This document shows positions 43,201 to 64,000 of a stretch of 64,000 bases of DNA, one piece after another (the first letter of the stretch is position 1; the number at the start of each line of letters is the position of its first letter). The position numbers and the translations under genes are program-made. The notes beneath the pieces were generated by a model, which was not told where the DNA came from, searched no databases, and was given only the letters and a program-made list of their open reading frames with translations. The stretch is taken from contig JAPEIS010000009.1 in assembly GCA_029531795.1 (NCBI GenBank), positions 372,001 through 436,000 of the forward strand, written 5' to 3'. Source of the DNA: Sclerotinia nivalis (Eukaryota; Ascomycota; Leotiomycetes; Helotiales; Sclerotiniaceae).

Positions 43201-45429
43201 GGTCTCAGTACAGTGTCTGATGTATAGTCGCCATTTCTGAATAATATCAAAAGCACCATCCCATAGAATATTTCTATGATGAGGTCAATTCCAACGCGAA
43301 GCTCTGAATGAACGAAAGCGGCCTTGCAATGCGGAAACGTTGAAACGGTGGGTTTTATCATAGTGAATGTGCCGATTGACAGGGCTCGTTGGCCAAATCC
43401 CAGCGTCCTTGATACAGCCATGTAAGGAATTCGTTAGCACGGATGAAATACGAGTGAAGAATGATAATATATGATTTTTACGTAAAGATTGATAGTGACG
43501 CTATCCATTGCGCTGGCAAAGGCTAGGCACAGCCCAGTTGACCCCTTATGCACCTAGAAATCGTCCAATAGGATTCCGCTTACCCGGAAAACTCTTTGAT
43601 GTAGCACGTACCCTTACACGTGACCTTCGAAGCCGGTGGAGCGACATTTGACTTCGAAAACTGTCCGCCAACGATTCATATGGATTTAAACATCAATCCA
43701 ATCAAAAGATGCATAAGAAAGATAGAAACATCAAGTAAACAATTCTTCAGGTTCCAGATATTCGGAACCTCGTATTCTGAGCGAATGGATAAAACCCTGA
43801 GTAGCTGAATATCGGTTTTGTCCTTCCACACCGAAAGAATTTCCCGAAGAACAGATATCCGTTTATGATGAGATTCGTATAATGGACCAGACCAGAAGCT
43901 TATCCCAGCCCGTATTGTTCCACCAATATCCCTATTCCTGCTCCTTGAATAGAAAATGTGATATTTTCAATGCAGTCAGCGGAGTCCTGTACGGGCCTAG
44001 CATGCAATGGATTCGAGGAGTCTCAAACGAATCTACTATGTACACACCTTCTAGCGCACCCTCAAAGTGTATAGATTCGTTGCCTTAAACCATCAATCAT
44101 TCTCGATCTCAAATGCAGCACTTCTGTTTCTGGAAACTTAATACGTACAGGCAGCACTAGACCTCCAGATCGTCTCAACAAAAACCCAGTAATACCTCTC
44201 AGACATTGTTTCACAACCCGTTAGACCATTGCCAAGAAACGCCAAAAGTATGAAGATTCATCTCTATACATCCGAGTATTAATCAATAGATGAACCGCCA
44301 AACAAATAGTCAGAAACAAAGATTAGATTTAAGCTTCAATACCAAGCTTTTCTGCCAAGGCGGGAGTTGTTCTGACATATTCACATATAATTGGGTTGTT
44401 TCGAGATGCCAAGACTGGGGTATGAGATAGGGGTCTAGAAGCACGTTTTGAGGCATTTTAATATGTGAACGCTCATCAAATGAGGAACATCGATGGATGG
44501 ATTATGTTTTGACGTGATATGTCTTCTTAATTGACAAATAATTAGGTAGGTACCTAGGTACTTCGACATTGATCCTTCGTATAAGAACATAAGGTTATCA
44601 CGATATCGATATAAATAGGTAACTGGCTACGACGCATCGCCTACTTTACTGTACCCTGCGCGCCACCAATCTTGTATCTTCAAACACAAATCTCACATAC
44701 CCCCCATCCCCCAATACAATACGATACGATACAAATTTCTTATTATCCATTGATTCCATTCAGCCAATCATGCAGCACCCCGCAACTTCGCCACCAACCG
44801 AAATTGCTCGAGCCTCACTCCAATGCATCGTACCTTCCTTCTCTCCTCTCTAGCCTCAATCTACAGCCAATCAACGCATCTCACAGACACATTGATCCAT
44901 GTACACTTTCACATACAATTTCATGAAATGGGATTTTTCAGTATCACCATAAGCTTTCTTCGTTTCAACAGCCATAAAATTTCTCAACTTCCTTCAGACG
45001 AACCCTGGAGCTGAGAAAGTACTTGTCGCTCTGTCTCTTACTTGATATGAATGAGTCTTCTTTTTCATGTTTATATATAAGCTGGAGGATGACCCATATA
45101 TTTTTCATTGGGATCTTTTCTGATTGAGATTTCTTTTCCGTGTCACATACTACTTTTACTTCTTTACTTTCTTACCTCTTATATTCACTCAGCCTTTCAT
45201 GTTGATTTGAACACTCCCTCTATTTACTTTAGTTAAGGCTGGAGCCTTTCCTTTCTTTATTTCCTTTACTGCTGCTAGATTGAGCAAATATCTTCAAACA
45301 TCAAATCAACCTACCGACCTTGAACATTTCCGCTTTACCTCCTGTCTTTGCATTGAACAACATCCTCACACCTCAACTCAATTTACTTTCTAAAAAACCA
45401 GTCACATCACACCACACACCACCACCAAA
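40238..45429. other. 5.2 kb gene-poor stretch with exon-like fragments
   Basis: No intact gene found. The minus strand holds several short hydrophobic segments with splice-like borders (for example 41656-41406 followed across a GTAAGT...CTGCAG interval by 41297-41246, ended by TGA) and an RTA1-like remnant at 42780-43000. From 44.1 kb onward it is the long upstream region of the TLC-like gene. Confidence 0.45.
42780..43000 (-). pseudogene. RTA1-family C-terminal remnant with frameshift
   Basis: Reading the minus strand, TTRIIYRLLEFPVGLNPSKN and MPYHGWCFTVLNAL match the family block R-x-x-Y-R-x-x-E-x-x-x-G...W. The expected continuation PYIMLFTIVWMNIIHPGR, with the diagnostic HPG, is in another frame a few bases on. 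A frameshift therefore separates the sixth and seventh helices. I find no convincing N-terminal half upstream. Decayed relative of the gene at 35861-36886. Confidence 0.6.
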
Positions 45430-46532
45430 ATGACCAACCCCTACACCAATTCCCCACACATAACCAAGGTCCCCCTCGAAACCATCTCCAAACTCGCTCC
45501 CTTCTCCGGCCTCATCCTCTCTCTAATCCTAATCCTCTACTTCCTAATCCGATACTACCTCCTCGAACCCATTATCCTCCCCCGTCTCTACAAGTCAACC
45601 TTTACAAGCATGCCTTTGGGCTCTCCTCTCCGTCTCGGCTTCATAAACCATCATATCGCCGGCCTTACTAAACTTCTCATCCTGCTTCTCGCAGCATATC
45701 CATTTATCTCCGTAACTTTCCTAACGGCTTCTCTGCATACACCGTTTGCGAAAGGGAGTCAAGTAACAATGGGTGATATTTTGATAGTGGCGGCGCAGAT
45801 GTTGATCGCGATGTATATATTTGAGTTATTGTATCGACCGAAGATTAGTCCAGTGAGTGTGGGTCATCATGTTGGGACTATTTTGATTGGGCAGAGTGCT
45901 ATTGCTATTAGTTTGGATTTGGTGAAGGAAAGGGATGCTACCATTGAATTTATTTTGTGTACGGTTTGGGGTATGTTTTCCCTTCCGTCTTCCTTCTCCA
46001 TTCCCCTTCCGTCTTCATTTTCCGTTTCCCTTCCCCCTCCATTCATTCCTCCCCTCCCTCCCCAAACTAACAACCCCCAGGAGCCTTCGACATCATCTCC
46101 GAATTCCTCCCCCACCTAACCATAATCCTCTACCGCGTACACCCCACCTCTCACGCCTTCCTCCGTAAAATCTTCCGCATCGCCGCAATCACAACCTTTA
46201 CAGGTACAATCGCCGAAACAGTTCTCACAATGTTTCTCTTCGGCAGTTTGTGGGATCGATGGACTTTAGCGTTTAAAATGACAACTCCAATGTTGCATGT
46301 GGTGTTTATGGCGGCGCAGTTGTGGGGGACGTGGAATTTTGTGGGGTTGTATAGGAGGCAGGGAGTGTTGATGAGGGAGATGGAGAAGAGGGGTGAGGAG
46401 GAGGCGGGGTTAGGGATGGGGATGGAGGAGGAGAGGGGGAGTGTGAGTGAGGTGGAGGAGGAAAGAGGAATAGGATATGGTGGGATTGGGAGGAGGGTGA
46501 CGGCGACAAGTGGAGTTGGTTCCGGAGAGTAG
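45430..46532 (+). CDS. Multi-pass membrane protein, TLC-domain-like
   Basis: Exons 45430-45970 and 46081-46532 with a 110-nt intron (GTATGT...CCCAG, phase 1) give 330 residues. About seven hydrophobic segments: residues 25-45, 75-100, a third ending near 137 (MGDILIVAAQMLIAMYIFEL), one around 150-165 after SPVSVGHHVGT, then after the junction (WGAFDIISEFLPHLTIIL), FRIAAITTFTGTIAETVLTM and TPMLHVVFMAAQLWGTWNFV. The spaced His and the order of helices resemble TLC-domain proteins (TRAM/LAG1/CLN8-like), which act in lipid synthesis, sensing or transport in ER or other membranes; I see no ceramide-synthase HHxxxDD motif. The tail is Glu/Gly-rich. Exon 1 is C-rich and codon use shifts near 45750, but the frame stays open. 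Confidence 0.75.
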
Positions 46533-48274
46533 TTCAAATCCGAGTGGAGAGACCTTTCGAACGATATTGTGATATCTGGAAGGAAAACTCCTATATCGAG
46601 AACAAGGTGATGAAGACTGCGGTAATGGGGAAAAGACCTGAAGTGTTGAGGCATAGGGCGTTGCATCGAGCATTTTGGTATTGGGATATCGCATAGCATT
46701 GGTACTGGTACATGGTGTGGATTCGAGAGAGATGGACGATTCATGTATAGGTATGTGAGGAGTTTCTGGGATTCATCAATTGCATGTGTATGATAGAAAA
46801 ATAGTGGCATGTATGGTATAGAATAATATTGATTGAGCTAGCTTTTTGGACCTACCTATCTGCTTAAGAGTTACCAAGAAGGGCATCGAGACGTAGTGTA
46901 CCGGTATGACTAATCTCTTTCGAGGCAATGGCCATCTGGCAGCCCGATTCTGGATTTCTAATCAACGCGGACGAGCACCGTGTATGGCGATTCCTCCCAC
47001 CCACATATCATCATATCCTAACCGTTTCACCCCATCGCCTATGACCCATCCTACCACCAAACCAACAGCCTCATCCATGTATATATAAACCCCTAAAAGC
47101 AAAACCCAATTAGTCTCAATAATCACTCACTCCATAGAAATAAAAATCAAGAAAGCGAAAATAATAAAGAGGATGTTGAAAAAATAAATCAGAAGCTGAA
47201 CGCGTTCTCAGCAATTGCAACGTTGTGCATCTGAGTGAGCTGGGTATAACGTATGTGTTGATCATCATTTTTATTTTTTTTTATTTTTTTTGGGGGTGAA
47301 GGATTGGGTGAGGGATTGGGTGGGGGGTTTGAGAGGAGAGAGTGGAAGATTGGGGAGAGGGAGAACGTACGGTTGTGGTGGTGTGGTGATGCTGGTTGAA
47401 GAAGAGGTAAAACTGGTGTTAGTTTTCAAGTTGCGGAATTTCGCATTGGCATTTGCATTTGCGGTGCGGGAAGTAGCTATTGCTTGCTCTCTCTCCTGTG
47501 CTGGTGAATAATCGTGCCAATTTGATTGGATTGGATTTGATTTGATTTAATTGAGCATTCAGCTCATTGATCCATCAATCAATTGAACCTTCCTTACACG
47601 ATAAATCATCGCAGCCGTTGTGTGAAGTTATTTCCATAACCTACTGAGCGGTATGGTTGGTATAAAAAAAAAAGTTGGAAGAAATAGAAATTTTTTGGGA
47701 AAAGGGCGCTAGAAGGGTTTTTTTCTTCTTGCGTGGTGGGATTTAGTAAGTTATGTAGTACGTGCTCGGGACACACCTGGTAGGGAGGAGGGTGTGGATT
47801 GAGAGATTTGGGAAATTTACTTGGTGCACGCCTCTGCTTCTGCTTCTGCTTCTGGGCTTTGGTGCAATGCGAGAGGATTTCTTGCGGGGATTTCTTGGGG
47901 ATATTTTTGCTGGGTGGGGGTGAGTAGTTATTTCACGACGGGTTTTGGGATTCAATAATACAGTAATGGAAATCAAAAGTTAAAGATAAGAATAAGGCTT
48001 CATTTGATTGCTCAGCTCAAGCTATAACTATAACTATCCATATCTCCCATTCCTTCTTTCCTTCTTTCTTCCTCATCATTCTATATCCAAGCTGTAGAGC
48101 AGTTCTATGTATCATATCATTATAATAAGCATTATTTAAGGGGCGTATATCATTCAGTCATAAAGGAGTCTATTCGCAATCAATATTAGTATAAGATTTT
48201 GTCGGCCATGATAGGCAGAGAAGAAAAACTCACGTATTAATTACATAATAAAATTCGCCAAACCGTTGATGGGT
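46533..48274. other. Convergent intergenic region
   Basis: 1.7 kb with simple T-, G- and CT-rich tracts. Splice-like segments on the minus strand (47189-47239 reads LTQMHNVAIAENAFSF before a stop) hint at a small multi-exon gene, but I could not build one with a start codon. Confidence 0.4.
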
Positions 48275-49556
48275 TTAAGCTACGATCTCGGCTTCGGCAA
48301 CGGCACGCTTGTAGTGATCGTAGGATCCGTAGTTTGTGTAGCCGGTTGGGGTGGGGGTTGGTGTTGCGGTGGTGGAGGTTTTGGTACTGGAGGTGGAGGT
48401 GGTGGCGGGGGTGGCGGGGACGTAGTTCTCGTAGTTGCCGTCTGTAATAAGAGAAGAAATGGTTAGTTATGCTAAAAGTGGATTGGGTGCGGTTAATGGG
48501 GCTGGTTGGGATGGTATAGGATGATAGATATAGCGAGGAGCCACGGACAGTTGCCATAGTCACCATCTGAATTAACAGAAAGCAAAGTCAGCATTGCTCG
48601 GGCGAAGCCTTGAGACAATTGAGAACATGAGAGTGCGAGACTGGCTTAATAAAACGAGAAATGAAGCGAAACTTACAATCACCGTAGTTTCCATAGTCTG
48701 CTGGGTCGGCTTCTGGAGCACGTGCTTTCTTGTTCTTGTATGCTCCGTCTAGGGGAAATGATTAGCTCATGCTAGTTTGTACAACGAGTATTACTTACAA
48801 TTTGCGTATGAACCATATCCGGTTGGTGTTGGTGTAGCAGATGAGGTGCTTGATGAGGTTGGTGTTGGTTTAACGGATGAGGAGCTTGATGAGGTTGGTG
48901 TTGGTGTAGCGGATGAGGTGCTTGAAGGAACTGTTGGATAGTTTACGTAGTTGCCGTCTGCAAGATTATATTGTTAGCACTGTATCAAAATAGCTATTAG
49001 TAGACGAACAGTTTCCGTAGTCACCATCTAGAGGAGATTGGGTCAGCATTTTATGGTCATACATTCGAGATTTCAAGAAATAATGATTTGAATGAATCCA
49101 ATGAAATGTATAAGCTTTGGTTGACTTACAATCTCCATAGTTTCCATAATCAGCGCGTTTTGCTGCTGGAACAGGCTCTGGTGCGGCTGCTCTGACTTTC
49201 TTGTTCTTGTAGGCACCGTCTATGAAAGGTGTTAACCATGTGAGAGCTGGATATCCGGTTGATATATCTGCTTACAATTGGCATAGCTACCATATCCAGT
49301 AGGGGCTGGTGTAGGCTTGGAGGATGAGGAAGAAGAAACTGGATATTTCTCATATGTGCCATAGTTTCCATAAGAACCATCTAGAAAGTGTGTCAGTATC
49401 TTACTTTCATTCCGTGGGGAAGGTACTCTTACAGTCACCATAATCCGCTGGAGAAGCATCAGCTTTAGCTTCTGGTTGAGGCTCTGCAACTGGTGCAGCT
49501 ACTGCGCCAACAGCGGCGAATGCCAAAAGCGTGATGAAGTCTCGTGAGAAAAGCAT
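48275..49556 (-). CDS. Secreted Tyr/Gly-rich repeat protein with two 18-nt microexons; candidate RiPP precursor
   Basis: Eight exons: 49556-49433, 49380-49276, 49219-49130, 49027-49010, 48957-48799, 48748-48677, 48566-48549 and 48441-48275, all seven introns in phase 1 and about 50 nt. They give 250 residues. MLFSRDFITLLAFAAVGAVA is a signal peptide. Every junction forms a Tyr codon. Exons 3-4-5 and 6-7-8 are an internal duplication: GAYKNKK, an Ala/Pro spacer, ADYGNYGD, GDYGN (the microexon), GNYxNY, then a Ser/Thr/Pro linker. Exons 2 and 5 both end GYGSYAN. Dibasic sites occur at K83K84, K97R98, K172K173 and K240R241. The unspliced sequence has stops, so the ladder of junctions is needed. 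It could be a structural surface protein or, given the UstYa-like neighbour, a processed peptide precursor. Confidence 0.8.
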
Positions 49557-51167
49557 ATTGAATGAAGTCTGGTTGAAGTAATTGAAATGGTAAAGATAGA
49601 ATCAGATGTTGATGATAGGAGAAAGATGAGGATTGATGAGGGGGATGATGATCAAGTATCGTGGGGTTGATAGATCTTAAATACCTTGAAAAATCTATAA
49701 TCCGTCTTGATATACTGTCAAGAATATCCATCTGAATACATTTTACCGAAGAAACCGACACTATCACCCACGCATGAATAGTATCGAAAGGAATCTATTC
49801 TTGGCATGACATTCAGTCGGTCAAGACTCAAGTAACTTGGTTGATAGGAAAAGTAATATTTCCACGTCATGATACTGCGGGTTTCCCACTCGGGCTAACA
49901 CACAAACATCAATTTTGATAGATATTGAGCGATATAGTAACCTAAAGACGTGATGGAAGTAAGGAGAACGAGACCGAATAGATACATCCTGCACTTTGTA
50001 CGTAGGGGAAAACAACTCATGTACTGAATAGCCACGCATTGCGGTATCGCGTAATTCGTATCTGCATAGCCACTTGGCTAATGTTATGTTGGAAGTTGCG
50101 GAACTATGATGTCGCCGCACAAAAGTTTCATAAATTCCCATAATTGGAAAGCTTATGTGAGGCTGGGATATGGTATAATAGAGAGGGACTGCATAGAAAT
50201 TGCGGGGTCTAACAGGTTAAAACTCGTGTTGGGAGGCTCGTATCTTGATGATGATCTACGTCCAGGTGATTGATACGAGAACGCACGAAGATCCATTTTT
50301 TAAGATCTTGGCATTTGAATAATTGGGTATATCTTCATTGTTGGAATACAAAGTATTAAATAAGGTTATGGTTAAAAACTTATTCCGTCTTCTCATTGTA
50401 TGTATCTAGGAAATAAGTATCTAGGAAATGATAGGAGGAATATTATACGAGTGACAGTTGTCGAGTATTGTATAATTTGCGTGGTTCCGCTATAAGAAAA
50501 ACCTACGGAGTATGTTGACATAAAAACCCGTGTGAAGTTATCAAACCTGGAAGTGGAGAAGTAAGAAGTAAGACCTTATTTCTAGAAACCAGAACGTCAA
50601 GTAAAATGACAACACAAGCCCTATTACCCATTTTTCCAGCATTCAATGTTACTCCGTACTCCGTGATTCCGACAGCAATGTGCACCCTATAATCCCTGAA
50701 GATATAACCCCTGAAGATACCCTCAGTGACCCACTCAAAAATCATTGTACCTCGTAGATCAATTTAACAGGGTGGTATCACCAAATGTTTAAGCTTCATC
50801 GGATTTTCCCGCATCTGCAACATCAGTTCAACATCAACCAACCTCGTACAGCACAACAGTTATGTGTATGTGTCATGTCATGGGCCTTCATTCTGGTGCC
50901 ATGTTATCAGATCGGATCATTATTACATCCGATGATATAGGGCTTAATTGACATTGACTAGATAACTTTTAGTAAGTATTTTTCAATACTTGGATGGCGA
51001 AGTCGCTGTAACATCAACTTCATTCATCTCGTCTCTTTCTTTCAAACTTCATTCATCTTTTGATCTGAACCCATCTCATACTTGATATATTCAAATGATT
51101 GATCGTTGTCGACTATTCTCTTCATCTTGAGATCTTCATTGAACCCCACTACATCCGTTTTGTCAAT
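49557..51167. promoter_or_regulatory. Divergent promoter region between repeat-protein and UstYa-like genes
   Basis: 1.6 kb between the two start codons with no supported gene. Palindromic and AT-rich stretches, but no assigned site. Confidence 0.4.
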
Positions 51168-52195
51168 ATGTCTTATACTCCATTTTCAGACAAGTATAAC
51201 GAAGTACCTCAATCAGAGGATGGTGAAGGATTACTATCGCATACCCAGCCAAAATATAAACAATCCCCCAGACGAAATAACATCCTTTGGTATATCCTGT
51301 CAATACCGGTGATATCATTATTGTCAGTCGCTTTTGGTATATGGATTGGTGCTCGATTTGTGGCGAATCCTGCCAAATTATGTCCATCATATGTGCAACA
51401 TTATTGTATGACCCAGTATCTGACCATTCATGTTTTAATTCTAATATGAAAATAGCTCCTATACTGAATGATATTGATACTTCATATCAACCAGTAATGT
51501 TCAATGGATCATTCATGAAGGAAAATGTGTTTAGATTAAAAGCAGGCCCTGAAGTGGATGAAGCTTGGGGAAGCCTAGGAGTACATTGTGAGTACTATTT
51601 TGTATCAATTGACTCGATTAAAGCTAATTATCCATAGATCGAAGTTTCGCATTACCAGCTAGCGAAGCAGAAAAATCCGGATTGACATCAGCTCATGTTC
51701 AAATAAACGAAAAATATGGGGGAGGATTTCCGGTAAACTTAGAAGGACTACATCATTTACATTGTCTTAATCTTGTAAGACAATCGCTATATTACAATTA
51801 CGACTATTACCACGAACAAGGAGAAGGAGCATTCGTGAATGATGATAATGTCGTTCAATATCACGTCTGTAAGTTTATCCCCAAATCCGCCATTTCATCA
51901 CATATCACTTCACTCAACGCCATTCTTCAACCAAAACACAAACTAACACACCCCAGCCCACTGTCTAGACATAATCCGCCAACAACTCATGTGCCAAGTT
52001 GACACGGGCGTCCTCGGCCAAGTATGGTGGGATAAATCGAAACCACAAGCTTTCGTAGACTTCAATACCGAACATAAATGCAAAAATTTCGACGCGATAA
52101 GACAATGGGCAGAGGGGAGACAAATGCCTGCGGGTGGCGCTCCGGATTTCTTACAGAGACCAAAGGAAAGTGATGTTCTTGAATCTATACCCTAA
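51168..52195 (+). CDS. UstYa-family (DUF3328) oxidase-like membrane protein
   Basis: Exons 51168-51405, 51456-51587, 51638-51868 and 51957-52195, with three phase-1 introns of 50, 50 and 88 nt, give 279 residues. A short cytoplasmic head is followed by one membrane segment (about residues 39-61, ILWYILSIPVISLLSVAFGI). Then come the DUF3328 landmarks: AWGSLG near 117-122, the first HxxHC at H162-H165-C166 (HHLHCLNLVRQSLYY) and the second at H199-H202-C203 (HVSHCLDIIRQQLMC), the latter formed by the last splice. UstYa-family proteins carry out oxidative cyclisation in fungal RiPP pathways (ustiloxin, asperipin, phomopsin) and chlorination or other oxidations elsewhere. Both motifs are intact. 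It is divergent from the secreted Tyr-rich repeat protein, which makes a precursor/oxidase pair plausible. Confidence 0.9.
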
Positions 52196-52586
52196 GATGG
52201 GATGATGAAGATGATGAATTACAAATGATGTATTGATGGGATGAGGCTTGGTTGGGTCGGATATGGTGTTTTGGATGGGATATATGGGGTGGGATTTGAT
52301 TGGAAACCTGGGTTATGTTACGAGTAATGTCAATTGTAATGTTCAAAAATCGCGAAGTATCTACAGGGAGATGTGATGAATAACCAGCTACATTCCCCTC
52401 ATCTTTTCACGGCCAGGTCTAGAATGTAGCAATCTACACCGCGCGACCCTTTCCTAAAGAAGTGGAATCAAAGATACCTTGCTAGTCTTGCTAGTCTTCC
52501 CGCCCCACGGAACGGCACTGATAATAGTCTCTTTTACAATGCCGGAATTTTCCTACCGCTTTCAACACGAACTCGTCCAATAACTA

Positions 52587-53105
52587 AGAGTTCTGGAATC
52601 TACTCACCGCACACCATTTGAATTCGTGACAGAATCCCTGCAAAAACCATATTTTCTCATATAAAATTAAATATCAAATAACTTTTTCATTATCCAATAG
52701 AATCAATTAAAATTTTAAAATATAATAATTAACTATATAAAGATTTCAGAAAATTATATATTTTATTTTTAATAATTTTTGATTGAAAATCACAAGTATT
52801 TAAAGTTGGAAATTTTCAAAATTTTCATTGTGTAACGTTTTTTTCATATTTTCTCCATATAAAATAAACGATTTTTTTGAACTTTTTCATTTCTTTAATT
52901 TCGAATATGTATAACTTCAAAACAAAAATTAATAAAAATATTTTGTTCAATTTTTAATAAATCTTGATTAATTATCTTTTTATAAATATAGAATTTAATA
53001 AATTATCTTAATATTTTATATATATAATAAAGATCTAAAAAGGTGAAAAATCGTCATTTTTGGTGTGATTTCGCTTAGTGTGCGGTGAGTCCGGTCCAGA
53101 ACTCT
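52587..53105. mobile_element. TA-flanked MITE, copy 2
   Basis: A 519-bp element nearly identical to 26690-27209 and in the same orientation. It has the same ends (AGAGTTCTGGAATCTACTCA and the complement of AGAGTTCTGGACCGGACTCA), flanked by TA at 52585-52586 and 53106-53107. Most differences are transitions. No coding frame. Confidence 0.85.
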
Positions 53106-53107
53106 TA

Positions 53108-55572
53108 CCTTCATTTAAGTCTCTTTTTTGCTGTTACCTATCGCAAGCATTGCCCTTTAACTATCACCCACCATCTTTTGTCTAGAACATATAAAAGAAG
53201 CGAAGTATATTTCTCCGCGCTAGCAAAACCCGAACGCTGCCTGATATTTTCTTCTCTGTTGTGTTGGTGTTCAAGCAAAGACGGTGTTTTTTTTTTCATC
53301 TTTTTATGGGTGGGTAGGTAGGTAGGTATGCAAAGTTGGGAGTTCAGATAGTCAGTAAGTAGGTAGTAAGTAGGTAGTAAGTAGGTAGTAAGTAGGTAGT
53401 AAGTAGGTAGTAAGTAGGTAATAAGTAGGTAGTAAGTAGATAGTAAGTAGGTAGTAAGTAGGTAATAGGTAGGTGGTAAGTGAATGAATGAGTGAATGAT
53501 ATTTGCAATGTATATGTGTATACTCTATATATTGAGTTTTTCATTAATATTTGTTCTTGGGATGCGTGGGGGAGATATACCCTATCCTCGAGAAGTGGCT
53601 ATATATATATATATATCTATCTATCGTCAATCTAGTTAGTTATTTAAACACGGGAAAAGGAAAGTATACAACATCTATGGCGATAAGATATATTGATAGA
53701 ATAATTTGTCTGTAGCATTGGGCTGGGATTGGGATTTCTGGAATACTTTCTTTTATATTGATCGTAGTTGATCTTCCTGGATATCATCCATGTGATGATT
53801 ACTAAATTATCATCTAAACATACCTTTTGCTGTTGATTTTTGCGAGAATTGTCTCTTTTCATCTATATTCTCCCCCCATCCCCCAGGGAGATACAACCTC
53901 CTACAGATTCTGTGCAATTAATCGTTCAAATTAAATGACGCATTTAAAAAGCAGTCAAGAAATATATCTTTCACTCCTCTGTTTGTCAATTTGTTCACAT
54001 GGAGATAAATTTACTGTAGTTCTAGTTTCATTTATACTACAAGAATATCCATTGTTTGATTTGATATATAGACGGTATATCGGCTATTGAGGGAATGTGT
54101 TAAATTCCTTCCTTATTTTGTTGGGATATAATGTAGAGATATGGATTCATGGATTTGCTTTTTAATCCTCGGAGTTCTTTTTGGACTTTTGACTTTGAAA
54201 GTATAAAAGAAGTTCGTGGTACAGTTTTCTCTCGTCATAGGATAATCTACCCAAAAAAATCGCGACCGCCTAGGGATTTGTGGAAATCTGTTTTTTGTTC
54301 GATCGAGGATGTAGGGAGGATGATTATGTTGTTATTGTGTGTATATAATACGGAATTGAGAGTTAGGTTTCGTTTATATGTTGTTGTTCTAGGTTGGTAG
54401 CTGGTGATTGTTAATCTTTGGGTATTTGCTGTGACTGGCATTTCCATATTGATATTGGATGAACTTTCTTCCAAGAGAAGATCAAATAAAGGAAGATAGA
54501 GTATAGTTCGGTTACAAGCCACTTGATATGGATATACACAATAGTTCTGCATAGTAGACATGTACACTTTGGTACGCCTGTGTTTAGATAAATGGAGGAG
54601 ATGCAGATGCTGGAGTAAGCTCTTTTATAAACTATTTCGAGCTTCTGTGGGGATCTAAGTTTCATTCACTTTTTTGAACTCGGAATTCCGCTGAACTCCT
54701 AGTTATTTCTGGAGGAGAACTGAGGCAGGTTTTGGATAGGTGACTGCTAGTGATTGGAGTGTGTATTGAGATATATAAAGTAGTATCTGATGAAATTTGG
54801 CAGAAAATAAAGAATGCTGGAATACCTAGCTAAGGAAAAGGGGCAGGGAGGAAGCAAGTGGATGGATCAATAGCTACTACTGTTATGGAAGTAGCATGCG
54901 TTTTGTTTGTAATATATATTGAGATGGAAATCTAATCCAAGACTTGTATCTCAGATTGGGCTTTAAGTTCTTGTCGTCGCTTTCGTATTCTTATTGTCCG
55001 TACACTCTCCAATAGTTTATGATTGGATTTTGCTCTGAAGCTTCCTGGATAACACAGAATATACAACCGAAAGTTTTATCAACGTTGTCATCTAAGAAAC
55101 TGTAGTCACCGTATATATTTTGTTGCTGTCGCTTTATATCCTAGTATACATGCTACAGAGTAGACCACTTCACAGACCTGCCATAAAAAAAGCAAATATA
55201 GTGTTGAATTGAAGTAAACCAATGATGTCAGGACGGAAAAAAAGAGCAAAGTAAGGAATAACTATTGTGCAAAACATTTGATGCTATAATGTGAGCTCAT
55301 ATTTCCTGGTTGAGATCAACAGCCTAATCCTATCAACAATTTATATCCCCCCCTCGTTAAACTCCAGGGAGGATAAACGATTCTATTCACAGCCCCACAA
55401 CGAAATCCCCACTACACCCACAATAATACTCATTGCAACATCCATCCAACTCACCCACCGCAAATGTGGGTACATACGTGGGGTCAACAAAAGAAATTCT
55501 CCCAACCGCTCCTAAACCTTCCACCCCAATTCCAGAACCTCTAACCCAGCCCCAAACCCAAAAAAAGTGACA
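53108..55572. other. Intergenic region
   Basis: 2.5 kb of AT-rich DNA with a minisatellite at 53354-53480 and no supported gene. The region 54.1-54.7 kb has open frames on both strands without domains. Confidence 0.45.
53354..53480. repeat. 11-nt minisatellite of AGTAAGTAGGT
   Basis: About eleven tandem copies of AGTAAGTAGGT, a few with one base changed. Each copy contains GTAAGT, the consensus 5' splice site. Confidence 0.85.
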
Positions 55573-55722
55573 TGCTGCGAGAGGGGTTCGAACCCTCGCA
55601 TCTTTCGATAATGGTGAAATTCTGAGAACTTAAAACCATCGCCTTAGACTATCATTTTAATTAGTACGGATTGATATTCAAGTGGAGAACTATGTGTGAC
55701 TTACCCACTCGGCCATCACAGC
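55573..55722 (-). tRNA. tRNA-Leu(UAA) with an anticodon-loop intron and a second D-loop intron
   Basis: Read on the minus strand. The acceptor stem GCTGTGA (55722-55716) pairs with TCGCAGC (55580-55574), one G-T wobble; discriminator A at 55573. D-stem GCC pairs with GGC once the segment 55704-55649 is removed, leaving GAGTGGTCTAA as the loop. Anticodon stem ATGGT/ACCAT; loop TT-TAA-G...C gives anticodon UAA, with a 12-nt intron at 55628-55617 in the standard 37/38 position. The long variable arm TATCGAAAGATG (ATC/GAT stem) marks class II. T-arm GAGGG-TTCGAAC-CCCTC holds an intact B box, and TGGCCGAGTGG an intact A box. Mature length would be 82 nt plus CCA, normal for tRNA-Leu. Adenine discriminator and D-arm fit Leu rather than Ser. 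Confidence 0.9.
55649..55704 (-). other. 56-nt GT-AG intron-like segment inside the tRNA D-loop
   Basis: Starts GTAAGT (55704-55699), has TACTAAT at 55666-55660, and ends TGATAG (AG at 55650-55649), about 11 nt after the branch adenine. Donor, branch and acceptor are all spliceosomal consensus and the length is that of the protein-gene introns in this window. Its removal restores a canonical D-arm exactly. Confidence 0.8.
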
Positions 55723-58700
55723 TCGTTGTGTTTGTTGGATGAGAGGTTGGATGTGGGGTTTGGGTATATATACTGTTTGTATTGTTTAGATGATGGTGTG
55801 CTGTGGCCTTTTTTGGTAAATTTGAGGGTTCTGTTGTTGATGGATTTTCACCGGGAGGGGGATGGGAAGGAGTAATCTTGCGATCCTATGTCCATGATAG
55901 CGATTAGGGAATTGATGAGCGAGCATGTATATGGAACGATGACTTGTATTAGGATATACATGATTCTTAGATGATGCAAATGCATCCATCATTACTTGTT
56001 TCTCGATCTGCGATGTAGATGTAAAATACTCGCTGATAATATTTTTCAATATCATTGCCGGCTCTAGCTACCCATCATCGTCAAAAAGAAAAACGAGCAT
56101 GGACTCATCCAAATATCTTCATCCTTTACTAAAGATTGCCAAAATGCAAAAAAGCCTACTTGAATCAACGAAAAGAAAGCCAAAAAAGCCAAAAAAAAAA
56201 CCCCCCTGAAAACGAACTTTGACTACCACACCTCTACAAATCACTGATCTATGTATTGTTACCATGAGGATGCAGAATAGCTGAATACTGGCCTTTTCAT
56301 GCCAGGAAAGCAGGATTCTACCTATACTTCTGACGATAAGTAGTGAAAATCTAGTACTCACTGTGCCCTGTGTGGATGAGCAGTTGTATTCACCGCGGTA
56401 GCGGTCATTTACTGCGTTTGGCCATTCTAGTTCTGCTCATCAACTAGGACTTATATAAATAGGCAGCACAATAATAACAAGAAGAATCAAAAGGCATATG
56501 AAGGTCTTTGATACGAAACATCGAGGAATAGATCACCATATCCACTTGTAGTAATATCTTACTATTTTTTTTGCCACTGCTGAAGGAAGATACCTTAATT
56601 CTCCGCTTTAGTTTCGTTCCAGTTTTAAGTGCTTATTGTACTAATTGTTTCCATTCTCATCGTTGTTACTATCCCTAACAAGAAATTACATTGACAAAAA
56701 TCTCATAAAATGGACCTTGGGCTTTGTTCCGATAGAGTCCATGGTTCACACGAAGGTCTTGGGAGTTGCAAAACCCTTCTAGATTCGTTGTATTGATAAA
56801 GTTCTTGTACATCCAGTTACCTAAGTAGTCAAAGCCAATCAAACTTCAACCACTACTCGAACTGGAAATTCCGACTCGAATTCCAGACTCGAATTCAACT
56901 TTGAATCCATACCCTTCACCAGCAAAAAAAAAAGTTACAAGCCAAACAACAGAACACCCCGCAATCCCAAAAAAACACAACCAAACCCCAAAAGCCCCGA
57001 GGCATTTTTTTTGTTCCCTTCCTAGCTAACATTTTCCCCAAAATCTCCGATTATCACGTTCTATAAATATCATGGTCGCAACCCCAAGAATGAAAAAATC
57101 TACAAATATCCACCCTAGACATAATGTCAACGCCTAATCTGTTGTCGCCAGGAAGAGGATAATCCGGCTATTTAGTATTGAATAGATTGTGAATGCTCCT
57201 GTGATGATTGGTGGGAGATATATGATGGTGATGAGTTCCCTCGAACCAAACTTCGTTCTATGATTTCCATTGCCGTATGCATTGTTTGAGGACTAGTTGC
57301 GGCTATAGAACCACTCGGGATTAAACGAGTGGATAATGGTAATAGATTATATCCATTGAGGCAGTAAGGCATGCATGTTTGAGAATTCCCTGGAGACTTC
57401 TTTCATAAGAATATTGCTTCTGGAGATGAATATGCTTCTTCAAAACTATCAACACTCCGCGTGGGTGAAAAGCCTCGATACCATAGGTCTACTTTCAATG
57501 GTGATACGTACCATGTTGTAACCTCAAAATCCTTGTTGTACCTCTAACAATCGCCTGCATACTCAGGGGCCGTAACGTACACCCAATAAAGGTAACTGCG
57601 CACAGAAGGAAGGCACAAATGGAAATTATAGGAGGATGTAAGTCTATTATCATGCCCAATTACTTGTTCATGGACATCAACAGACGATGGATTGTGTACA
57701 AACAATTGCTTATTGGTTTCAGATGTGCAACAAAACTATCTGCTATTGCCTACATAAAGGAAAACTTCCCTACATTCTAGGGGCATTCCCCGCGGATCAT
57801 ATGTTGTCACGAGGAATGATTACTATATAAACCCAATTAACCACTCGGTAATTGTGGCGTCACTCTTATCGTGATATATGTTCAACAAAACTATTCATTT
57901 CTGGAAGAAAATCTCAAATCAGATATGGAGCAAGAAATATCCCTGTTGCTATTATCCAGAGAAAAATCTCTCTATCGCCCAAATTAGATATATGACAAAA
58001 CTGTTAATTACTGAAAAGAATTCTTAATCAGACATGCAACAAAACTTTATGCGCTTGCCATCCAGAGAGAATCCCGCAATCAGATGTGCAACGGAAATGT
58101 CCTCTCACCTGATGATCATGGGATTTACCATTTCAGATGTTCAACAAATGATTTTTAATACACCAATTACTTTCCATCGATATCGTCAATGCCTTCCTAA
58201 ATATACGATCAAGCTCTCTTACCAATAAGCTCCAACACCTTAAATCCATAGCTTATCGTGATGGGATTGGTACAGGCGGGTAGAGCATATGGCGTGATGA
58301 TCATTTTATCCTCATCTATCTCGCAGTCTCAATCCCTCTAATATTAGTTGTTTGATCGAAGGAAAAGTGGAATGGATGTATGAAACAAAACTAAGTAGGT
58401 GATGAGGATTTATACAAGGTAGGGCGAAGATTCACACCAAGCTTAATTTGGTTAGCCATAAAAATGCTCGGGGCCTACCGAGAGCATTTGATTATCTGGC
58501 GCGATAACTTTAACACGTTATACCAATATGCCCAGTGAGATCTTCATAGTGAGCCTTTACTGACATTCAATTCTCAGGTGAGCTGAAGGTAAGCTTGCAG
58601 TTTCGGACATAGAGTACAGTAAGTACGGTGAGCCATACCCCACCAAAGATCTTCATTGATACCAAAAAGCCAAGAGCCAAGATGCGGAGGGAGCTACAAA

Positions 58701-59103
58701 TAGCATCTTTCTGCACAACAATCTATCTACAAGAATTTTATATCTTTCCTTGAACTGTGAAGTTTAAATGATAATGTTGCTTATTGTTTTTCATTTCTTT
58801 CTCCTTTATCCAATAACCAAGTTCTTGGTTTCTTAAACAGGGATTGATTCTTTTAGACCTTACAAACCATGATTTTTAGCGACGTCATAGGGTCTGGCCA
58901 TCTGTCTGCCGGGCAGCGGGAGATTGACACCAAACCTTCTCTTTGAAGAAAAATTAATATATTCTCTAGATGCGCGATAGACCTTTCTAAAATAAAAGTA
59001 TACTTTTCAATCAACTATTATTTCTTCAATATGTTTTGAGATAGAACTTTCATCTGTCATTTCATTTATGGCATTCTATTAATCTTCTCTTACTTCTTGC
59101 ACA
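55723..59103. other. 3.4 kb intergenic region
   Basis: Upstream of the TOK1-type channel and beyond the tRNA. Contains a degenerate tandem repeat at 57719-58160; no supported protein gene. Confidence 0.45.
57719..58160. repeat. Degenerate tandem repeat of about 50 nt
   Basis: At least six copies share CAGATGTGCAACAAAACT-like cores (near 57719, 57886, 57920, 57985, 58030, 58081 and 58134). Several are followed by ATCCAGAGAGAATC-like and AATCAGA-like blocks. The order is preserved but the copies have diverged. Confidence 0.6.
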
Positions 59104-61301
59104 ATGAACGATCCAGGTCTCGATGAACCCATCTCCAACGATGCCGACGATGTAGAGAATCAGCACCGTGATGAGCGAGATGAAACTAAGGAAGATGAAG
59201 ATGCTTTCCTCAACCCAAGGTACGTGAAAGGGAGATCTCTGCAGATATTACCATTTACTCCAAAATAACGCACTTTACTAACAAACATTCCCCTAGTCGT
59301 TGGTGGTTTGCTAGTACCGCATTTCCTCTCATCGCCGGCACATTTGGACCTATGGCTTCAGCATTCAGTATTTGTGCATTAGTTGTACGTTGGAGAGTAT
59401 CGATACCACCAGGCGGAGTAGAAGAGCATGGAATTTACATCGATGATCCGAAATGGTATGCGCATCGTACACTTTTGTAGAAATTATGTTGACTTCGAAT
59501 CAGGTTGATTGGTATAAATGCAGCACAATTAGCAATAGCACTCATTTCGAATCTATTCCTACTTTTAAATATGGCAGAAAGAGTTCGGTTTTCGATTGCA
59601 CAACCTATTACGATTATAGGCTGGTACCTATCATCTTTTACATTAATTGGTTTGACAGCTTGTGCTTCTGGGCCGTTGATACTCCAACCACTTGCTGCTC
59701 ACGCCTATACACAGGCATTCTACTATGCGATATTTTCTGCCGGTCTTTACTTCTTGGTGGCTAGTTTAATGATGGTTACAGTATATGGAGCACATAAAGG
59801 ACATTATGCAAAGGAGTTTAAATTGACTATGAGTCAAAGAACTTTGATGTTACAAACGATCAGTTTTCTAGTATATTTACTTGCTGGTGCGGCAGTATTT
59901 GCTCATGTCGAATCATGGCAATATCTTGATGCTGTTTATTGGTGTGATTTTACACTTTTAACAGTTGGTATTGGAGATTATGCACCAATGACACATTTAG
60001 GAAGAAGTCTCTTGTTTCCCTTCGCAATCGGTGGTATCATCATTTTGGGTTTGGTTATTGGCTCGATTCGATCCTTGGTATTAGATCGTGGGAAGGTTAA
60101 ACTAGGAGCAAGAATGGTTGAAAAGGAACGAAGGCGTATTTTAAAGAAAACCCAGAAGAAAAATATCGAAATATTAAAGCCCAACGAAACAGGAGAGTCC
60201 GAGTCAAACAATACGCTCATCAATAATGATGGTCTTACGGAAAGAGAAAGACGTCAACAAGAATTCGAATTAATGAGACAAATTCAAGAAGAGGCAGCTA
60301 CCAAACGTCGTTGGACTTCTTTAATCATTTCTGGAACTACATGGTTTGTACTTTGGTTTGTTGGTGCAGCAATATTTCGAGTCACGGAGTATACACAAAA
60401 CTGGAGTTACTTCGAATCTCTTTACTTTTCTTACACATCTCTTCTAACCATCGGATATGGTGATTATTATCCACAATCCAATTCTGGAAAACCATTTTTT
60501 GTTTTCTGGTCTCTTCTCGCCGTTCCATCTCTCACAATTCTTATCAGCAATATGGGCGACACAATCATCAAGGGGATTCGTGATTTTACTCTTTGGATAG
60601 GAAATTCTACTATCTTACCTGGTGAAAAAGGAGTACGGCATTCTCTCAAAGAAACAATAAATAAGTTGACATTCGGAAAAATATTTGAAGTTTCTGAACT
60701 ACCTCCTGGTATTGAAGGAGCAGCAATCCCTCGCAATGCTGATAGAACAACTGGACATGAGTCGGCGAAAAATGATCCGGAGTCTGCAGCTCAGCGGGTT
60801 CAAGGTGGCCGAGTAGATATCGAAACTAATCGCGCTAGAAAACAAGCAGAGGAAAATGATAGGTTGCCTAAAAATCGACATGATTATCATTGTCTACTCA
60901 TCAAGGAAATCGGAAAAGTGATGAGACATCTTAATAGTTCCCCACCGAGAAAATACTCATTTGATGAATGGGCATGGTATCTCAAATTAATAGGAGATGA
61001 TGAAAGCGAGGCTGGCAATCATAGAAAGGCGGTTAGGAAACCGGAGGATGGGAAAGAGTTAGGGGGTGCGAAGGGGGAATGTGAGGATTCGGGGGAAAAG
61101 TGGAGTTGGGTGGGAAATAGAAGTCCGTTGATGGGGAATAAGGAGGAGAGTGAATGGGTTTTGGAGAGGTTGCATAGGACGTTGGAGAGGGAGTTGGAGG
61201 GGATAAGGAGGGAGGAGATGGAGAGGTGTGGTGAAGAGGATAGGAATGCTGTGCGGGGGAAGAGAAAGGTGGGAAAGGAGGGAGATAAATCGGAAGATTG
61301 A
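59104..61301 (+). CDS. TOK1: TOK1-type outward-rectifier two-pore K+ channel
   Basis: Exons 59104-59219, 59297-59455 and 59504-61301 with introns of 77 and 48 nt (both phase 2) give 690 residues, against 691 in yeast Tok1. After an acidic head the protein has eight predicted membrane segments in the TOK order (first near 42-66, three more before the first pore) and two pore loops: TVGIGD at about 245-250 and TIGYGD at about 407-412, both with intact selectivity filters. The segment LLAVPSLTILISNMGDT follows the second pore, as in the family. The long C-terminal tail is charged and ends GKEGDKSED. The protein is expected in the plasma membrane, letting K+ out on depolarisation and setting membrane potential. 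Intron-exon joins restore RWWF and DPKWLIG. Confidence 0.93.
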
Positions 61302-63877
61302 TTTCTGGGAGATGAATTGTAATTGTGGTTTGCATGGTATGGCGTTGGCAGAGTATAATACCACGTTTCAGTCCGCTGCAACTTGCTTGGGACTTCAAGC
61401 ATACTGGCGTTTGAGTATTGGGATACCCATTCTGCGTTCTACATTTTGAGGAGCTTTGCCTCGGTCTGTATAAAAGAAATATATTTATAAATAAAAAAAA
61501 CTTGATAATGAAGTGTACACATCTACTATCATGGCCTCCCAGACACTTTCTCAGAGTACCAACCTTTTGGCTCTTAATTTTTGTACTCTATACGCTTATC
61601 CCCATGCTATACTATTCTTCTACTATTATATGATAGAGGAAAGGGGTAAATGAAAGGGGGGGTTTATATATGTTTTTGAGAACAATAAAGGTGGGGAAAA
61701 GTAAATACAAGTGTAGAATGAGGATAGGGTTAAGAGAGATAGGGTAGAGAGAATGGATTTTACTTTTAGCTTTTGGGTTCGTACCCGATTACCTGAGTGG
61801 GCGCTAGGTATCTAGGTATTTAGAATATTTTTTTTCCAAAGGCAAGGTATCGGTATCTAGTGTTAAAAGCTTTTGTGATGTGTAACAGGAAGTTTTTCTT
61901 TCTCGTATATTGTGTTTGGAAAATATATGAGATTTGGGAAATTTGGTAATTGCATGTTAGGGTATGAGGGTATGAAATAGAGAAAAGTATCCTCAGAGAT
62001 TTCTGGTTGTCGGAGTTTGTTTTTGGTTTTGCTGTCTTTTTATCAATATTATTCATTATTCATTACCATTACCGTAACCCTCTTAAAATTATATCATCGA
62101 TAACATAAAAACTGTTAAATACACGCATGCTCTCATCCCCATCCCATGGAGCTTGCGGATAATTCGGGGGGGATCTAGGAGTAATGTTGTGCAGCTATTT
62201 TCACTCCTCGCTCCGGTTTGCGAAGTTCCTGGAGCTGTAACCCTAGTTTTCTGTTTGATTGTTTGAGGGAAATTTGGGTACTAGGGGAGGAATATATATG
62301 CTGGGGTTGAGGGGTACTGAAGGGTGGAGAGGCGATGGGTGAGTGGTGGGGTGGGTGTGGGTAGAGTTGATGTGAATATACGCAGTGAAGTCGACACAAT
62401 ATGGGTGAGGGAGAGCGAGGAGAGGAAGAGGGGAGTTAGAAGAGTGATAGTGAATTGTGCTGTGGTGTTAGGGAAATCTTACAGAAACTTTTACCGGAGT
62501 CTTTTGAAAGATGACAAGAAGAATTGAAGAGACTGTGTTATATAAGTCTTCATTCTACCCAGTTTCTTCTTCGCGAATCCTCATCATAAGCACAGCGTTC
62601 GGTTTTCAAGGACGGCTTACATGAGAAATATTCTTCTAGATAAGACCTGGACCTCAATTAACTTTCAACTTGGCATTGCAGGCCATTTGATGTATTGCTA
62701 TCAATTATAATTACATCTATTCACTCTCATTTCTCGTATTATTCTTGTCGCTCTCCAATCCAGTCACTTTTCCGCGCATTGTACACTACATTGGTAATAT
62801 CTCTAGCTTAGTAGGGTTGTTTTGCTAAATTAAGATACAAAATAGTAGGTAAGTTGCTTTGTGAGCCATGCTAGGGAAGTATCTCCTTGGGGGTTCTCAA
62901 GAAGTTGTGCTTTGCTCTTTGTAGTTTTTGAGATGGAGCTGGGGTGGGATTTTTATATGAAGGAGGTTTGGGATGGATTGGGAGATGGGAGGAATATAAA
63001 GGAGTGATATTAAAAAGTGAATCATAATTGTATTTGTTCCATTAATTCGCTCATACCCCCACACTAGGAATATACGTGGGAAAGAAACTCCCTGCAAATC
63101 GCTCCCATCCTCGAAACTGAAATCTTATTCAACTTACTGCTAAATAGCATATATAATTCTCTCTTCGCCCCTACCGGTTCCTCTTCAATATTTTACGATA
63201 CGCAACAGTTCAAAGGCTGATGGGGACAAATATCAATTGAAAGGTTCCTCTCCATTCATTGTTTCTAAGAATATCATATAATCAGATTTCGATGCTGTAT
63301 ACTTACATACGAGGAATTTTTGGAAAAGGGGCGGGGACCCTTGCTATCATCTGATTGCTGTTATTTATTTGTCATTTATGCAGTTTATGTTGTCTATTTG
63401 CCGTTAGCATTATTGTTCTCATATCTAGATAGTTACATTAATCATATTTTTGTCAATATTTTGCGACTGATTTCATCGCTCATCAGACTGTGAATTTATA
63501 TAGGAGCTTAACACAGCTAATCCTTGCCATGGGTAGTCGATCGCTGTTTCATAGTTTCTTGGTAAGCGTTCGAAGAAGGTAGATATGTTTAAGTAGCCTT
63601 GGGTATGGATTTCATTCTTATCTCCTTGAGTGCCTCGATACAGGACTGGTTGTATAGTGATTCTAATTTCCCACTAACTTTCGCCATAGTGAATACACAC
63701 ACCTCCTTACCAATCTTCCTGATGAAAATCTCTTGCTGTTTAGATAAAAATGCTTGAATCGTATGATGATTTTAGTAAAAGAATACCAAAAACCTGGAGA
63801 AAATTTCAGTGTGAAGTTAGTGAACCAATACATAAATCTATTTATTATTAACTCGATATTATGAAGTTTTTATCATC
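61302..63877. other. Intergenic region
   Basis: 2.6 kb of AT-rich sequence after the channel gene. Short frames on both strands lack domains. No RNA gene or clear repeat seen. Confidence 0.45.
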
Positions 63878-64000
63878 ATGGGTAAATATTTAAATAGTTT
63901 AATGAGGAAAAATCATTCCACTGTCTCTTTTGCTACTTCTCTTGTTGCTCAAGCTGACCATCCAATTGCTACTTCCCATACACGGTGATAGCACGATTAG
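63878..64000 (+). CDS. Possible first exon of a gene running off the right edge
   Basis: ATG at 63878 opens MGKYLNSLMRKNHSTVSFAT, continuing SLVAQADHPIATSHTR before TGA at 63986. The Ser/Ala/Arg-rich composition looks like a mitochondrial presequence. A donor-like GTGATAG at 63985 could splice out the stop. The window ends too soon to decide. Confidence 0.25.

Follow-up and report, generated by a model that had tools for sequence, protein, structure and literature searches.

A predicted spliceosomal intron in the D-loop of both nuclear tRNA-Leu(UAA) genes found in Sclerotinia nivalis

By the prevailing division of labour the tRNA endonuclease deals with nuclear tRNA introns, while spliceosomal introns are a matter for Pol II transcripts, the fission yeast U6 gene being an exception. 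In the sections cited here a yeast review follows the same lines: its spliceosomal introns belong to Pol II transcripts, and tRNA introns are treated apart (PMC5499181). Most eukaryotic tRNA introns are described as lying at the anticodon-loop position, and short inserts in the D- or T-arm as likely pseudogenes, red algae and nucleomorphs being the exceptions (PMC4090602). The ectopic introns of Cyanidioschyzon merolae, nucleomorphs and archaea do lie, like the insert that we describe below, in the D-loop or D-arm of a tRNA, but they are discussed as endonuclease substrates, often with a bulge-helix-bulge, and the portions of these papers that we draw upon describe none of them as a GT-AG spliceosomal intron (PMC4090602, PMC3978253). 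Another likeness is to Schizosaccharomyces pombe U6, a Pol III product that carries an mRNA-type intron in its transcript (PMC10484740). That RNA, however, is itself a spliceosomal component, and reverse splicing close to the catalytic core is the supposed origin of its intron, whereas the host in S. nivalis is a tRNA and the fungus's own U6 gene is intronless. The U2-type introns of Sclerotinia and Botrytis protein genes are GT-AG and short like the inserts considered here, but are found in mRNA genes; their median length is reported as 62–78 nt in S. sclerotiorum and B. cinerea (PMC3158057). A literature search, with most subscription papers and preprints outside its scope, turned up, among the texts and extracts that it covered, no nuclear tRNA gene reported to carry a spliceosomal intron.

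Against this background, and reasoning from sequence, we think it very likely that a gene on contig C9 of S. nivalis encodes a functional tRNA-Leu(UAA) with a spliceosomal intron in its Pol III transcript, that a second gene on contig C4 does likewise, and that besides these two no UUA decoder is to be found in the assembly. The window that we analysed is a stretch of 64,000 nt (C9:372001-436000) of an assembly of 50.3 Mb in 31 contigs, and positions below refer to it unless a contig is named. The C9 gene comprises the following features.

55573..55722, minus strand: tRNA-Leu(UAA) gene, C9 copy; 150 nt with two introns, mature tRNA 82 nt without CCA
55705..55722, minus strand: exon 1, 18 nt, with the acceptor 5' strand and the D-arm to G19; sequence GCTGTGATGGCCGAGTGG
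55705..55715, minus strand: A box TGGCCGAGTGG, intact, its end coinciding exactly with the intron start
55649..55704, minus strand: putative D-loop intron of GT-AG type, 56 nt, at position 19/20 (after G19); sequence gtaagtcacacatagttctccacttgaatatcaatccgtactaattaaaatgatag
55699..55704, minus strand: candidate 5' splice site GTAAGT, with GTAAGTCACA common to this gene and its C4 paralog
55660..55666, minus strand: branch-site motif TACTAAT, with the branch-type A at 55661, 12 nt from the intron end
55649..55650, minus strand: candidate 3' splice site AG
55573..55648, minus strand: exon 2, containing the anticodon intron
55617..55628, minus strand: anticodon-loop intron ttctcagaattt of the ordinary type, 12 nt, at about 37/38, boundaries set by eye
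55584..55594, minus strand: B box GGTTCGAACCC, intact
55560..55566, minus strand: Pol III terminator, a run of seven T that starts 7 nt past the gene end
55765..55772, minus strand: upstream TATA-type element TATATATA, at -50 to -43

An earlier, sequence-only reading of this DNA had placed a 56-nt GT-AG insert in the D-loop of a tRNA-Leu(UAA) gene at 55573-55722, and the sequence bears this out, on a strand (minus) that the reading had not given. It had also described an 82-nt class II tRNA from which a 12-nt anticodon intron would still have to be removed, and these lengths are reproduced in silico, the gene measuring 94 nt minus the D-loop insert and 82 nt minus the anticodon intron as well. 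The splice signals that it listed are all in place, the insert beginning with GTAAGT, containing TACTAAT and finishing with GATAG, although the distance from branch to intron end, put at about 11 nt, turns out to be 12 nt; and the A and B boxes are as intact as it had said. Exon 2 opens with TCTAAGGC, after which come the anticodon TAA (read by eye), the 12-nt intron, a long variable arm, the T arm, the acceptor 3' strand and the discriminator A (A73). All seven acceptor pairs are standard, and the features of a functional tRNA-Leu(UAA) are present together: class II cloverleaf, UAA anticodon, A73, both internal promoter boxes and a terminator.

The same reading had suggested counting the other UAA-decoding Leu genes of the genome, and one other was found. 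BLAST of the whole C9 gene against the genome finds two places, the gene itself and C4:1760416-1760557 (76% identical), the latter within a second tRNA-Leu(UAA) gene at C4:1760409-1760565 that also has a UAA anticodon and carries a D-loop insert of 53 nt, GTAAGTCACAACTTAATTCAACCGTCAAAAGTCATTACTAATAAAATCAACAG, at a position identical to that of the C9 insert. The mature cores of the two genes (67 nt, with acceptor strands and introns excluded) agree at 66 positions, while the acceptor stems, GC CG TA GC TG GC AT in C9 and GC GC TA CG GC TG TA in C4, differ on both sides at five of seven pairs and yet are paired throughout in both. That all five changed pairs still pair argues for selection for function in both copies. 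The D-loop inserts have in common GTAAGTCACA, TACTAAT, an AAAAT and the final AG, with the branch-motif A lying 12 nt from the intron end in each, whereas only 15 of 28 aligned columns match in the middle of the intron; the anticodon introns, 12 nt in C9 versus 22 nt in C4 (as measured by ARAGORN), match at 9 of 22. Comparison of window positions 45001-64000 with C4:1755000-1774999 gives a single BLAST match of 146 nt, the tRNA alone, the compared flanks being unrelated. An identical insertion site, conserved signals and unrelated flanks together suggest that the intron predates a dispersed duplication of the gene. Both copies also look maintained, and the indications for both points are strong but, with two sequences alone, not a statistical proof.

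Genes of this kind are missed or misread by gene finders, and tRNA-Leu(UAA) may have been overlooked likewise in other fungal annotations. In an S. sclerotiorum small-RNA study, reads were retained solely where they matched genomic tRNA loci perfectly (PMC5315462), a filter that would have discarded any reads across a spliced D-loop junction. A default ARAGORN run over the window reported no tRNA, and with introns of up to 300 nt allowed the program called the C9 stretch a tRNA-SeC(tca), misplacing its intron, which it made 69 nt long, and reported nothing at the C4 copy; Rfam gave the C9 gene 15.5 bits at a loose threshold, against a cut-off of 29 bits, and left it unreported at the gathering threshold. 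In tRNAscan-SE 2.0 the search for non-canonical introns is described, in the part of the paper cited, for archaea (PMC8450103). Exact removal of the D-loop insert, in silico only, changes the picture: ARAGORN then names the C4 copy tRNA-Leu(taa), with a mature length of 82 nt, and draws a cloverleaf for the C9 copy, which it names Stop(tta) because it places the anticodon intron elsewhere. The minimum-energy folds of both unspliced precursors are non-cloverleaf, and that of the D-spliced precursor with its anticodon intron kept is a cloverleaf in C9 and not in C4; this C4 fold and the Stop(tta) call weigh against our reading.

Which machine would remove the D-loop insert? Canonical 37/38 introns, the substrates of the Sen endonuclease and the Trl1 ligase, are present in both genes (12 nt in C9, 22 nt in C4), and the 12-nt one sits, as an endonuclease-type intron does, at 37/38 and flanked by the anticodon stem. 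The D-loop insert differs from them in its position at 19/20, in its GT, branch and AG signals and in its want of a bulge-helix-bulge, and resembles a U2-type intron in its GTAAGT...AG ends, nearby branch motif and conserved signals around a drifting interior, the last of these as judged from two copies only. GTAAGT, TACTAAY and AG spaced to give exactly 53 or 56 nt occur at 2 of 494,474 placements in 124 kb searched on both strands, one for each length, and these two are the tRNA inserts themselves; a first-order Markov control gave the composite motif, at 53–56 nt, in none of 4,944,740. Looser spacing in the same 124 kb yielded three matches (the two tRNA inserts and one of 47 nt) versus one in the reversed sequence, and when any length between 45 and 90 nt was allowed the motif came to 11 of 11,364,530 placements. 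An insert of 53–56 nt is too short for a group I or group II self-splicing intron, and self-splicing was dismissed on that ground.

A rival that we rate as very improbable makes the insert an ectopic tRNA intron of the sort known from red algae, nucleomorphs and archaea, which the tRNA splicing endonuclease would excise. Cases in C. merolae and nucleomorphs certainly exist, some of them lacking a clear bulge-helix-bulge (PMC4090602, PMC3978253), and nucleomorph tRNA introns for which these sources define no such motif are excised nonetheless, by a route given there as unknown, so an endonuclease could act at a D site even where the motif is absent. The motif is indeed absent here. In a direct test the D site of either copy forms one of four central pairs and no outer helix, and in the same transcripts the anticodon site has a 6-bp outer helix with two (C9) or three (C4) of four central pairs. 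The sequence-only reading had held that a GT-AG intron in the D-loop would not fit the endonuclease route. Against this rival, too, what the two inserts chiefly conserve is their GT, branch and AG motifs, and the D-arm, which the insert breaks, is a reported contact of Sen54 (PMC4090602).

The second possibility, that both genes are interrupted pseudogenes and that an intact tRNA-Leu(UAA) gene lies in genomic DNA that the assembly lacks, we regard as hardly more than a slim chance. It has in its favour that D-arm inserts in eukaryotic tRNA genes are usually read in this way (PMC4090602) and that the assembly is in 31 contigs with its completeness not stated, and an intronless UAA gene could be lacking from it. 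Within its 50.3 Mb, however, no intronless nuclear UAA-decoding tRNA came to light: a BLAST search that used the intronless tRNA of 82 nt gave three matches, confined to the C9 and C4 loci, and five sequence patterns agreed. A D-arm/anticodon pattern with up to three mismatches found a tRNA-Ser on contig C31, which is apparently mitochondrial, and one chance match, with no UAA gene; an anticodon-plus-B-box pattern found the C9 and C4 genes and one chance match (with an unrelated tRNA some 850 nt from the latter); its other B-box form gave two chance matches only; its version for longer introns gave four tRNA-Leu(CAA) genes and two chance matches; and a pattern allowing any normal D-loop gave six matches versus 31 in the reversed control, with no T-arm sequence behind any of them and no tRNA according to ARAGORN. 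When the 16 loci of stray pattern matches were passed to ARAGORN with introns of up to 150 nt, the sole tRNA was the C31 tRNA-Ser(UGA). An intact tRNA-Leu(UAA) elsewhere, which the sequence-only reading had named among the findings that would make this copy an interrupted pseudogene, is thus nowhere to be found in the assembly by BLAST or the five patterns, and no intact gene that shares their anticodon makes either copy redundant there. Also at odds with a pair of pseudogenes are the single insert site and conserved splice signals of two dispersed copies, and the compensatory acceptor changes, intact A and B boxes and T-runs that both possess. The reading had left two options, a Pol III transcript spliced by the spliceosome or an inactivating insertion; the C4 insert at the same site and the failure to find an intact gene render the latter unlikely and, with the shared splice signals, point to the former, a spliceosome-processed Pol III transcript.

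How far the insert extends to other tRNA genes was looked at in several ways. The tRNA-Leu(CAA) family has four genes (on C1, C8, C11 and C5) with near-identical exons and variable anticodon introns of 34–36 nt, and the D-loop insert is absent from all four. A CAA pattern with a short gap was discarded, having given three chance matches and missed the four CAA genes, whose introns are longer. A Leu-specific D-loop-intron pattern run over the genome picked out the C9 and C4 genes only; this search by pattern was made for Leu alone among the isoacceptors. The Rfam model RF00005 was set aside as a genome census, since 63 of 2986 candidates were scored and neither UAA gene was listed, so that its silence is no proof of absence. 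ARAGORN recognised 30 of the 31 RF00005 matches outside C24, C25 and C31, none with a D-loop insert, in what is a biased survey, neither method having been built to see such inserts. Scans for a tRNA-Leu with a D-loop intron in viral contigs (one match and none) and in genome contigs (16 matches) were likewise rejected: by eye none of the 17 continues as a tRNA, and three contain CTAA.

Whether the cell has need of such a tRNA can be judged from its codons. Of the 431 Leu codons in seven large open reading frames of the window, 72 are UUA; one of the seven, a potassium-channel gene, is matched in databases (UUA 14 of 57 Leu codons in the part counted) and the other six are open frames. The potassium-channel frame is 100% identical to an S. 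nivalis database protein over 99% of the query. This gene, of the TOK type (window positions 59220-59503), has short GT-AG introns of 77 nt, with TACTAAC, and of 48 nt, with no evident TACTAAY. By the standard wobble rules UUA is read by a UAA anticodon only, and neither by CAA nor by the tRNAs that read CUN. Since no UUA decoder besides the C9 and C4 genes was found in the assembly, the translation of UUA would on this reckoning depend on the spliceosome.

The signals around both genes are those of Pol III. The A and B boxes are 110 nt apart in C9 and 117 nt apart in C4; a run of four T starts 6 nt past the end of the C4 gene, and the run of seven T 7 nt past that of C9; and a TATA starts at -50/-46 in C9 and at -45 in C4. 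Among 30 control tRNA genes of S. nivalis, 19 have a TATA at -25 to -75 and 23 a T-run within 45 nt. A point against our reading is that introns are not a general habit of Pol III genes in this fungus, to judge from its U6 snRNA gene (C1:7073134-7073240), which matches the whole Rfam model and has no intron. The weakest rival, that the spliceosome acts on a Pol II read-through transcript of the tRNA gene, draws on the general knowledge that spliceosomal introns normally occur in Pol II transcripts, but it seems to us remote in view of the A and B boxes, the T-run just past the gene, an upstream TATA like that of many tRNA genes here, and the report of a spliced Pol III product, fission yeast U6 (PMC10484740).

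For a Pol III transcript spliced by the spliceosome, we infer the following course. Pol III, directed by the intact A and B boxes, would transcribe the C9 gene; splicing in the nucleus by the spliceosome would then excise the 56-nt U2-type intron and so restore the D-arm; and the tRNA endonuclease, which reads the tRNA body, would afterwards remove the 12-nt anticodon intron together with a ligase. The C4 paralog, with its 53-nt D-loop intron, would presumably take the same two-machine route. We consider it likely, on a broader view, that in S. nivalis, and possibly in a wider fungal group, every nuclear tRNA-Leu(UAA) gene carries a spliceosomal intron in its D-loop and all UUA translation is spliceosome-dependent. 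If this is true, the division between endonuclease and spliceosome breaks down for a tRNA that none of its genes can supply without the spliceosome, an essential Pol III tRNA needs both machines, spliceosomal action extends to Pol III transcripts that are short and have to adopt a tRNA fold, and the decoding of one codon is tied to splicing.

Some further tRNA-like sequences came to light elsewhere in the genome. The contigs C24 and C25, each of about 57 kb, contain head-to-tail units of about 4.48 kb, and one tRNA-Ala(UGC)-like gene, organellar in appearance, recurs in every unit; the longest open frame in the C24 unit is 118 aa (code 4), and nothing in that unit matched the 10 kb of C31 used for comparison. 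Two other tRNA-like genes, at C8:783078-783218 and C14:1202473-1202627, score 52 and 46 bits with Rfam and contain 70 and 82 extra bases, which ARAGORN places as anticodon-loop introns and whose ends look alike by eye.
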